Positions 22,871-25,160 of a stretch of 37,208 nucleotides of DNA are shown one piece after another. Position 1 is the stretch's first letter. The number at the start of each line of letters is the position of its first letter. The translations under genes and the position numbers were made by a program. Location: positions 1-37,208 of the forward strand of contig JAUWPW010000009.1 of the NCBI GenBank assembly GCA_030611415.1, in the 5' to 3' direction. Below the pieces are notes generated by a model that worked only from the letters and a program-made list of their open reading frames with translations, did no database searches and was not told where the DNA came from. Source of the DNA: Candidatus Bipolaricaulota bacterium (GTDB taxonomy: Bacteria > Bipolaricaulota > Bipolaricaulia > UBA7950 > UBA9294).

Positions 22871-22899
22871 TTGAAAAACAAGCAGTAGCTTGCTAAAAT
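22871..22899 (+). promoter_or_regulatory. Extended -10 promoter of the rplU operon
   Basis: TTGAAA (22871-22876), a 17-base spacer and TAAAAT (22894-22899) with TGC directly before the -10. Predicted initiation is near 22906, which leaves a leader of about 17 bases with GAGGTG before rplU. There is little room for an L21 leader structure. Confidence 0.75.
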
Positions 22900-22922: not shown

Positions 22923-23237
22923 ATGTATGCTGTAATTGAAACAGGTGGAAAACAATATCGAGTTGAAGAAGGGATAGTCTTGGAGCACGAGCTGATTCAG
23001 GGCCTTGACTCCGGAAAGCCAGTAGAATTTAACAACGTTGTTCTTCTGGTTGACGGTAGCGGTGCCCATGTAGGAGCTCCCTACCTTGATGGTGCAGTCG
23101 TCAAAGGAAAGGTGCAAGCACAAGCGAAGTCGAAAAAGATAGTTGTCTACAAGTATAAGAGCAAGACGGGATATCGGCGCAAGCGTGGTCACCGTCAACT
23201 ATTCATGACAACACTAATCACTAAGATACAGGCGTAG
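22923..23237 (+). CDS. rplU: 50S ribosomal protein L21
   Basis: 104 residues from ATG 22923, with GAGGTG at optimal distance. The upstream TTG start in the ORF track would lie in the promoter -10 region and is rejected. The sequence is typical throughout: 'MYAVIETGGKQYRVEEG' at the N-terminus, 'VLLVDGSGAHVGAPYLDGAVV' in the middle, and the basic C-terminal signature 'KSKTGYRRKRGHRQLFM' that binds 23S rRNA domain II. It is the first gene of the series rplU-prp-rpmA-obgE. Confidence 0.97.
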   Translation: MYAVIETGGKQYRVEEGIVLEHELIQGLDSGKPVEFNNVVLLVDGSGAHVGAPYLDGAVVKGKVQAQAKSKKIVVYKYKSKTGYRRKRGHRQLFMTTLITKIQA

Positions 23238-23247
23238 AGGAGACAAA

Positions 23248-23571
23248 GTGGGCGAAGTTCTTGTGAAACGCGATGAAGATAACAGGCTCGCTGGCTTCAC
23301 GCTACAAGGAATGCAAGCGGACACAACTGCTTCAGCAAGTGCAATTCACTTGTTGCGAGCGACGGTTGCCTCGGTGAGCGGTTATTTACATATTAGAGCA
23401 AATTTCTCAACAGGAAAGGAATTTCTTCTGACGATTGACCGAAGTGATCCCCATTTGAACAGGGAAATAGATGCAATTATGGAGACTTTGTTGATTGGGC
23501 TTAAGATGTTGGCGGAAGAATACCCCGATGATCTTGTGGTACGTGAAGCTAGGGCGGAAGTACGTGTATAG
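23248..23571 (+). CDS. prp: Prp-family protein (ribosomal-processing protease homologue) lacking the catalytic residues
   Basis: 107 residues, GTG start with GGAG six bases ahead, between rplU and rpmA as Prp (YsxB) always is. The fold pattern matches: an N-terminal strand with 'GFTLQG' and the C-terminal helix 'IMETLLIGLKMLAEEYPDDL', comparable to 'MLVSLQTIEEEY' of the S. aureus enzyme. Active Prp uses a His right after GFTxxG-type residues (GHA motif) and a Cys in the D-x-V-C-A motif. Here GH is replaced by GM, the Cys motif is absent, and the protein contains no cysteine anywhere. It therefore cannot be a cysteine protease. L27 next door has no N-terminal extension to remove, so the protease role has probably been lost and a non-catalytic role in ribosome assembly kept. 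The last 16 bases are duplicated just downstream. Confidence 0.82.
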   Translation: MGEVLVKRDEDNRLAGFTLQGMQADTTASASAIHLLRATVASVSGYLHIRANFSTGKEFLLTIDRSDPHLNREIDAIMETLLIGLKMLAEEYPDDLVVREARAEVRV

Positions 23572-23589
23572 GCGAAGTACGTGTATAGG
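23557..23589 (+). repeat. Tandem 16-base direct repeat at the prp stop codon
   Basis: GAAGTACGTGTATAGG occurs at 23557-23572 and again at 23574-23589, period 17. The first copy contains the prp stop codon. The second makes up most of the spacer before the rpmA SD. This looks like a recent slippage duplication. Confidence 0.8.
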
Positions 23590-23600
23590 TAAGGAGTACT

Positions 23601-23858
23601 ATGGCACATAAGACGAGTACTGGTTCGTCCAGTAATTTTAAGGATAGCCCTGGTCAACGTCTAGGAGTAAAGCGCTATGGAGGCCAGTGGGTAAACGCGG
23701 GAACCATCATCATTCGTCAGCATGGAACTAAGTATGGTTTAGGAAAAAACGTTGGCCTAGGCCGAGACTACACGATTTATGCTACCTCCCCAGGCTATGT
23801 CCAATTTGAGGGACGTAGCAAGAAATACGTTAGCGTGCGTCCAGCCGAGAAGGTCTAA
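23601..23858 (+). CDS. rpmA: 50S ribosomal protein L27
   Basis: 85 residues with AAGGAG before the ATG. It starts directly with '[29 protein letters not shown]', the mature-type N-terminus of Gram-negative L27 that reaches the peptidyl-transferase centre. The Firmicutes-type leader with a cleavage site, which Prp removes, is absent. The body ('[25 protein letters not shown]') and the short C-terminus are standard. Confidence 0.97.
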
Positions 23859-23891: not shown

Positions 23892-25160
23892 ATGTTCATT
23901 GACCAAGCAGATATCCATGTGCATGGAGGGCGTGGAGGCAATGGCATAATTAGTTTTGTCTCTAACCGTCATCACATGAAAGGAGGTACAGACGGAGGAA
24001 GTGGAGGAAGTGGCGGAGCCATAATACTGCGTGCTAAAGCAGGTATGTCTACTTTGTATCGGTTTCAGAGTGACTCCATATTTCGTGGCCGACCTGGTAG
24101 CAATGGGGGCAATAATAATAAGAAAGGCGCGCGGGGCAAGGATACTATTATCTTTGTCCCTATAGGAACAATGGTCTTCGATCGAAAGAGTGGCGGGCAG
24201 ATTGCGGATCTCTTGTCCGCGGGGGATGAAGTAGTAGTTGCGCGTGGTGGAGAAGGAGGAAGGGGCAACAAGAGCTTTACCAATTCTACTCGGCAGGCAC
24301 CACGAATCTGCGAACGCGGAGCAAAAGTCCAGAGCCATGCCCTACGTCTTGAATTGAAGATTCTCGCGGACGTAGGAATAATTGGCCGACCCAATGCTGG
24401 GAAATCAAGCCTTATCTCGCTTATCTCGGGAAAGCAAGCCAAGGTAGCTGATTACCCATTTACTACCATTATCCCTAACATAGGCGTGGTGAATTTCGAT
24501 GACGTACATCAGTTTGTGGTAGTCGACATTCCAGGCTTGATCGAGGGAGCCCATGCCGGTAAGGGTCTTGGCGACCGCTTCCTGAAACATATTGAGCGGA
24601 CGCGGATGCTTGTTCATATGGTAGACCTGGCAGAAGCTCAAGTGCGAGATCCACTTAGGGCTTACCAAGAGATTAACAGAGAACTGGCCGCCTTTAATCC
24701 CTGTTTGACTAAGCGGCGACAGCTTGTCGTAGGGAACAAGATCGATCTGGTTGAGGAAAATGAAGTAGAGCGGCTAAGGGCTCGATTTGCTGAGAGTGCT
24801 ATTCAGTTGCTGCCGGTATCTGTTGTTACAGGAAGAGGAATCCCTCAGTTGATAACGAAGATTTATCACGTCTTGCAGGAAACGACAATAGACAAGGGCA
24901 AGACTACGGTACCATGGCGTGTATATCGATATTCAGACAAAGCGGGCTTCTCTGTAAGGCGAGAAGGTAACGTTTTCATTCTAAGAGGAGAGGCTATTGA
25001 ACAGCTAGTCCAGAAACTGGTGCTTGATAGCCGGGACGCGCGGGAATACCTGGGCGGTCGTCTCAAGAAGATGGGGATAGTGCGTGAACTAGTACGCCGC
25101 GGCATTGTTGAAGGCGACCTTTTACGCATAGGAGATGTCGAACTTGAGTTTCACAACTAG
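23892..25160 (+). CDS. obgE: GTPase Obg/CgtA
   Basis: 422 residues in three domains. The glycine-rich Obg fold (about 1-155) has 'VHGGRGGNGIISFVSNRH' and 'DGGSGGSGG'. The G domain (about 157-330) has G1 GRPNAGKSS, G2 region 'FTTIIPNIG', G3 DIPGLIEGAH and G4 NKIDL. The C-terminal OCT domain (about 345-420) has 'VYRYSDKAGFSVRREGNVF'. Obg binds the 50S subunit during late assembly and links growth to GTP and ppGpp levels. The ATG at 23892 has no SD. The bases before it are pyrimidine-rich (CCCTCC), so initiation may depend on flow-through from rpmA 33 bases upstream. The 3' end overlaps nadD. Confidence 0.96.
   Translation: MFIDQADIHVHGGRGGNGIISFVSNRHHMKGGTDGGSGGSGGAIILRAKAGMSTLYRFQSDSIFRGRPGSNGGNNNKKGARGKDTIIFVPIGTMVFDRKSGGQIADLLSAGDEVVVARGGEGGRGNKSFTNSTRQAPRICERGAKVQSHALRLELKILADVGIIGRPNAGKSSLISLISGKQAKVADYPFTTIIPNIGVVNFDDVHQFVVVDIPGLIEGAHAGKGLGDRFLKHIERTRMLVHMVDLAEAQVRDPLRAYQEINRELAAFNPCLTKRRQLVVGNKIDLVEENEVERLRARFAESAIQLLPVSVVTGRGIPQLITKIYHVLQETTIDKGKTTVPWRVYRYSDKAGFSVRREGNVFILRGEAIEQLVQKLVLDSRDAREYLGGRLKKMGIVRELVRRGIVEGDLLRIGDVELEFHN

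Follow-up and report, generated by a model that had tools for sequence, protein, structure and literature searches.

The window, a 37,208-nucleotide stretch from a Candidatus Bipolaricaulota bacterium (contig JAUWPW010000009.1, positions 1 to 37,208), carries a ribosomal-protein operon on its forward strand. The rplU gene, encoding ribosomal protein L21, starts with an ATG at position 22923 and occupies 22923-23237 (Pfam Ribosomal_L21p, 104.7 bits). It is followed by a prp-like pseudoprotease gene at 23248-23571 (107 amino acids, GTG start), in front of which we read a Shine-Dalgarno sequence, AGGAGA, at 23238-23243. Next come rpmA, encoding ribosomal protein L27, at 23601-23858 (TIGR00062, 102.8 bits), with a Shine-Dalgarno sequence (AAGGAG, 23591-23596), and the gene for the Obg GTPase at 23892-25160 (Pfam GTP1_OBG, 161.9 bits). 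Just 5' of rplU, a consensus scan returned a promoter-like site at 22871-22899 (TTGAAA-17-TAAAAT with an extended -10 TG, 10 of 12 matches), which is likely to be the operon promoter; such sites are no more numerous in the region than the chance number. Sequence comparison also revealed that a 16-nt piece of the prp 3' end, stop codon included, is repeated perfectly in tandem at 23557-23589 (GAAGTACGTGTATAGG twice, with a spacing of 17). The duplication is present in the window genome and absent from its three congeners, and because of it the gap between prp and L27 measures 29 nt here versus 12 nt in the congeners. An Rfam search of the 20-28 kb portion of the window gave zero matches and revealed no RNA motif at the locus.

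The product of 23248-23571 had been called Prp from its position and fold pattern in an earlier note made from the sequence alone, and both its placement between L21 and L27 and a confident predicted Prp fold bear this out. Prp (YsxB), the ribosomal-processing cysteine protease (MEROPS C108, PF04327), shares its fold, its size and its gene position between L21 and L27 with the window protein. An AlphaFold2 model of the 107-residue protein, built from an 87-sequence alignment, reached a pLDDT of 90.7 and a pTM of 0.84. In VIA comparisons, the model matched all five solved Prps (S. aureus 7KLD and 4PEO, S. pneumoniae 2IDL, S. mutans 2G0I and T. maritima 1S12) with Z scores of 12.8-16.2 and rmsd values of 1.6-2.2 Å over 89-102 residues; the next unrelated row had a Z score of 7.0. 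The top 14 Foldseek matches were likewise all solved Prps, with E values down to 6e-8. The window protein scores 21.6 bits with PF04327 (E 2.6e-4), below the cut-off of 27, and a profile of the phylum's own sequences recovers S. aureus Prp with an E value of 2e-5. We conclude that the window protein is Prp by descent and, according to the predicted model, by fold. The model also aligned over 94 residues with one chain (9hny_FR, 6sga_FR) of the complex that assembles the small subunit of the trypanosome mitoribosome, with Z scores of 5.1-5.6, which is below the trustworthy level.

The protein is nevertheless a homologue of Prp that fails the protease's defining features: unlike Prp, it lacks His22, Cys34 and Asp31, has lost the segment carrying the nucleophile, stays below the Pfam cut-off and is paired with an L27 that has no extension to cut. 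Alignment with the active Prps of one Bipolaricaulota family (f3, described below) and with the solved Prps placed the former active-site loop and the start of helix 1 at residues 18-34 (23299-23349). As the earlier note had claimed, the protein contains no cysteine at all and has GM in place of the GH motif of Prp, within Q20-G21-M22. Beyond these point changes, the D-I-V-C-A segment that carries the nucleophile (five alignment residues) is deleted. Gly21, Asp31 and Ser38 are essential loop residues in S. aureus Prp (PMC9405229); the window protein keeps G21 and lacks equivalents of Asp31 and Ser38. The Prp-like glycine at the loop hinge is retained in 63 of the 79 rows of the dead set. The neighbouring L27 does begin at a mature-type N-terminus, MAHKTSTGS, with no extension and no in-frame start upstream. 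All three congeners, 84-88% identical, share the GM, cysteine-less state, and together with 74 further genomes in the same state they rule out a sequencing or assembly error. From these residues, Prp of the window type would be catalytically dead and would no longer cut its substrate.

To learn how widespread this state is, we surveyed 100 Bipolaricaulota genomes, whose families we coded f1-f9. A prp-like gene was present in 87 of them, always directly upstream of L27, in the order L21-prp-L27 on one strand (87/87), with Obg next wherever it was visible (86/86). Six of the 13 genomes without prp make up family f6, and the other seven also lacked an L27 match, the region probably being missing from those assemblies. 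At the f6 loci (L057 and L164-L167 among them), L27 is short and prp is cleanly absent, so that the L21 stop codon is followed after ~10-25 nt by L27; we saw no change there besides the loss of prp. In families f1, f2, f4, f5, f7 and f8 (78 genomes), His22 and Cys34 are both absent, usually with a deletion of 4-5 residues at that place, and L27 begins with MAHK or MATK at a new start 3' of the prp stop codon. At 43 of these 78 dead loci, more than one third, only a short gap separates the prp stop from an L27 start that shares its frame, an excess that probably reflects shared ancestry.

By contrast, the eight genomes of f3, a nested family, have an intact active site of the RGHTGYAEEGKDIVCAGVS type. 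Their L27 carries a cleavable extension (M...FDLQLF|AHK or |ATK) that starts 14-17 nt inside the prp 3' end, behind a GAGGAGG site. The single genome of f9 (G096; locus L133, 2009-2620) is intermediate: its Prp keeps the histidine and has glycine for the cysteine (ETIVGAGAS), and its L27, whose start still falls within prp and has a strong GAGGAGG site, carries an extension that has decayed to MLKFDRMMVF|AHK. Across the inactive rows, the catalytic cysteine was found in none and the histidine in this intermediate alone. The expectation that loss of Cys and His follows loss of the L27 extension therefore held within Bipolaricaulota, where 78 of 78 short-L27 genomes that retain prp lack both residues, 8 of 8 with the canonical extension have both, and one is intermediate; it did not hold in other phyla, where short L27 is found beside Prps that keep His and Cys.

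We inferred a C20 PMSF tree from 18 proteins encoded in the ribosomal-protein operon region (2549 columns), with which FastTree agreed. The topology was (f4,((f1,f2),(f6,(f5,(f9,(f3,(f7,f8))))))), with SH-aLRT values of 94-100 at these forks, and placing all inactive or gene-less rows in one clade was rejected on this ribosomal-protein tree (AU p=3.7e-7). Under vertical descent without regain, this would imply about five inactivations (in f4, f1+f2, f5, f9 and f7+f8) in addition to the gene loss in f6, or one fewer under another root. We regard as improbable the alternative that Prp was inactivated once, in the ancestor of the phylum, and that transfer or recombination gave f3 back an active Prp together with a cleavable L27. 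Parsimony on the tree would permit these two changes, and the prp gene tree taken alone, with few columns and long outgroup branches, leaves the root unplaced and a grouping of f3 with the outgroup possible (AU p 0.50). However, the Prp of f3 has the phylum-specific R8-D9, Y46-L47, R65 and NRE-DA and groups with those of f9 and f5 in the prp tree (93/83), and its L27 has the three-residue C-terminal gap common to f5, f7 and f8. In addition, f9 retains the L27 start inside prp together with a half-decayed site, and the broken active sites differ from one family to the next. With regain in f3 unlikely, the sequences indicate that inactivation was probably repeated rather than single.

Outside the phylum, we examined an outgroup sample that had been retrieved with a model of active Prps. 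All 16 outgroup Prps read at the motif keep His and Cys, one of them (G268) in an Asn-Glu-His instead of a Gly-His context. So do all 30 of the further Prps examined, which we take to be from Spirochaetota on the basis of gene and genome features. A search outside Bipolaricaulota with the phylum's own profile added no clear dead Prp. Nine outgroup genomes have a short L27 with His and Cys intact, and these, together with the 30 spirochaete Prps, rule out the simple rule that a short L27 always kills Prp. All nine possess FlhB, in each case with a D[LIV]Q[LFYM]F|A site at its start. FlhB is missing from four outgroup genomes; L27 is long in three of them and, in the fourth (G286), was not found in the flank examined. 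In the flagellated outgroup members (L226-L236), including those with an L27 that lacks an extension, the FlhB N-termini have an L27-like D[LIV]Q[LFYMQ]FA motif, which reads NIQLFA in one; the exception is G225 (L237), with an FlhB that lacks the motif and an L27 that we did not locate.

FlhB was proposed as a second Prp substrate by Wall et al. (reviewed in PMC9405229). It was present in 70 of the 70 spirochaete genomes tested and was found in none of the 17 Bipolaricaulota genomes tested, incomplete genomes being able to hide it; nor was it found in the window genome, which is 93% complete. Across these samples, genomes with a cuttable L27 or an FlhB keep the active site, and those with neither have lost it. 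The short-L27 Prps of T. maritima and the spirochaetes, which are probable FlhB processors (PMC9405229), likewise adjoin an L27 that needs no processing, but they keep His and Cys in genomes that have FlhB, whereas Bipolaricaulota have neither FlhB nor the active site. We suggest that the active site was lost in Bipolaricaulota because both of its known or proposed substrates, the L27 extension and FlhB, were gone.

The gene itself has been inactivated and has been retained. In the dead lineages, pooled dN/dS was 0.092 for prp, near that of L27 (0.085), compared with 0.133 for Obg and 0.161 for L21; for active prp in f3 it was 0.067. These values are descriptive, being simple Nei-Gojobori counts pooled over pairs with branches in common, and they agree with the continued constraint that the earlier note had suggested looking for. 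With the catalytic residues gone, purifying selection in force and the L21-prp-L27 arrangement kept, its picture of a protease that became a pseudoenzyme and stayed in its operon stands. Constraint was relaxed in the former active-site columns of the dead copies (0.135 versus 0.082 elsewhere), whereas in the active copies these columns gave 0.055 against 0.070 elsewhere. Such relaxation could also mean an active site that is altered and still active.

All 87 sequences share, besides M1, seven invariant residues: R8 and D9 (23269-23274), Y46 and L47 at the end of helix 1 (23383-23388), and R65, R72 and E73. The last three belong to a stretch of invariant or nearly invariant residues, R65 ... 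R72-E73-x-D75-A76 (23440-23475), that the alignment and the predicted model place at the end of strand 4 and the start of helix 2. The seven occur in active and dead members alike and are not a general feature of Prps from other phyla. Going by the secondary-structure order of the model, the conserved residues would occupy the ends of strands and helices, on the far side of the protein from the old active-site loop. We also observed that H48 and D64-R65-S66-D67 (A2 columns 55 and 73-78) became common in dead f1, f2 and f4, where they possibly form a new binding patch.

This pattern bears on two accounts that leave the protein either without a role of its own or with a different chemistry. That the gene is a decaying relic, useful only as a stretch of translated spacer or to couple the translation of L21 and L27, strikes us as extremely improbable. 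It would fit a gene that always lies between L21 and L27 and, in the active families, contains the L27 start, yet seven invariants in 87 sequences, a dN/dS of 0.09 and a confident, intact predicted fold argue otherwise, and f6 lives without any such spacer. As a full account, it is ruled out by the constraint at the protein level. Nor do we find it at all probable that the protein is still an enzyme, with a new catalytic centre (for example, S66/H48/D64 in f1, f2 and f4) and another substrate. H48, D64 and S66 are indeed common in these families (65, 69 and 63 of the 79 dead-set rows, respectively), but they are not invariant even among close relatives, and the invariants of the dead lineages, R, D, Y, L, R, R and E, include no conserved Cys, Ser or His.

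We consider it somewhat probable that the window protein is instead a dead descendant of Prp, left without a substrate and retained for a non-proteolytic role in L27 or 50S assembly within the L21-L27-Obg operon. In this scenario, the open reading frame would descend from the L27-processing cysteine protease. The L27 extension would have been lost in several lineages when the start codon moved out of the 3' end of prp to a place immediately ahead of AHK; with FlhB also absent, nothing would have been left to cut, and the His/Cys loop would have decayed. The protein would have been kept for a second role, one that involves no proteolysis and is linked to the L21-L27-Obg operon, most likely as a dedicated chaperone or assembly factor that binds nascent L27 or a late pre-50S particle, presumably through R8, D9, Y46, L47, R65, R72 and E73, opposite the old active site. 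In six families the protein has survived the loss of both substrates, so cutting would not be the reason for its retention. The absence of prp from f6 implies that the retained role is dispensable in some backgrounds.

Work on S. aureus offers a precedent. Cells with pre-cleaved L27 grow poorly, Prp binds its substrate tightly, and the C34A variant arrests pre-50S particles, on which it remains together with L27 (PMC9405229). A chaperone role of Prp for L27 has already been proposed from that work (PMC9405229, section 3.3.2). Given these results and a gene directly 5' of L27, a chaperone-like role would be the most economical one. Dedicated ribosomal-protein chaperones are known in yeast, and none has been defined in bacteria (PMC9405229); a survey of ribosome biogenesis factors reported unusually few known factors in Bipolaricaulota, from few genomes (PMC12641178). 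The likeness to such chaperones and to the C34A effect would lie in a gene beside its client and in a proposed non-catalytic binding of L27 or pre-50S particles, with the difference that S. aureus Prp is an active protease in normal life. By this analogy, dead Prp may bind L27 or a pre-50S particle.

Two calculations bear on the partner. A model of a Prp-L27 read-through fusion (in-frame neighbours with stops as Gly, 43 rows) had a pTM of 0.51 and no confident interface. Distance covariation in the dead lineages was weak and did not single out L27, whose partial r of 0.29 was below those of S8, Obg (0.33) and L5, L6 also being high. A retained pseudoenzyme with another ribosomal or regulatory role, such as an Obg adaptor, an rRNA- or mRNA-binding autoregulator of the operon or a binder of another late 50S protein, is in our view rather unlikely. 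Such a role would share the operon logic and the purifying selection, would suit conserved Arg, Asp and Glu residues away from the old active site, and would agree with the higher covariation value of Obg. On the other hand, the locus yielded no RNA motif, the covariation signal is weak and is high for S8, L5 and L6 as well, and it is L27 and the late pre-50S particle that the S. aureus data implicate. For Prp as a whole, it is an even-handed possibility, if slightly short of probable, that the protein has two functions, as a protease and as a 50S/L27 assembly factor, and that Bipolaricaulota lost the first about five times and kept the second.

Prps with a short L27 and an intact active site were already known (T. 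maritima 1S12), as was the suggested chaperone role. Our literature search for Prps without the catalytic residues or cysteine, in which subscription papers were sparsely covered, found none. As far as the searched literature shows, Prps that lack the catalytic residues are new, as is the tight link to a change of the L27 start site within one phylum; so are the recurrence of the loss in a gene that selection retains and the correspondence between active-site retention and FlhB. That correspondence supports, on comparative grounds, the view that FlhB is a genuine substrate of Prp. Prp being an antibiotic target, a second essential role, if real, would have consequences for the design of inhibitors. 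The poor growth of S. aureus with pre-cut L27 had raised the question of what Prp does beyond cutting L27. In a phylum that has lost the scissors and kept the protein, the two functions would be separated by nature, and the residues required for the second could be mapped objectively. If the two-function reading is true, Bipolaricaulota would possess a naturally separated, dedicated bacterial ribosomal-protein chaperone.
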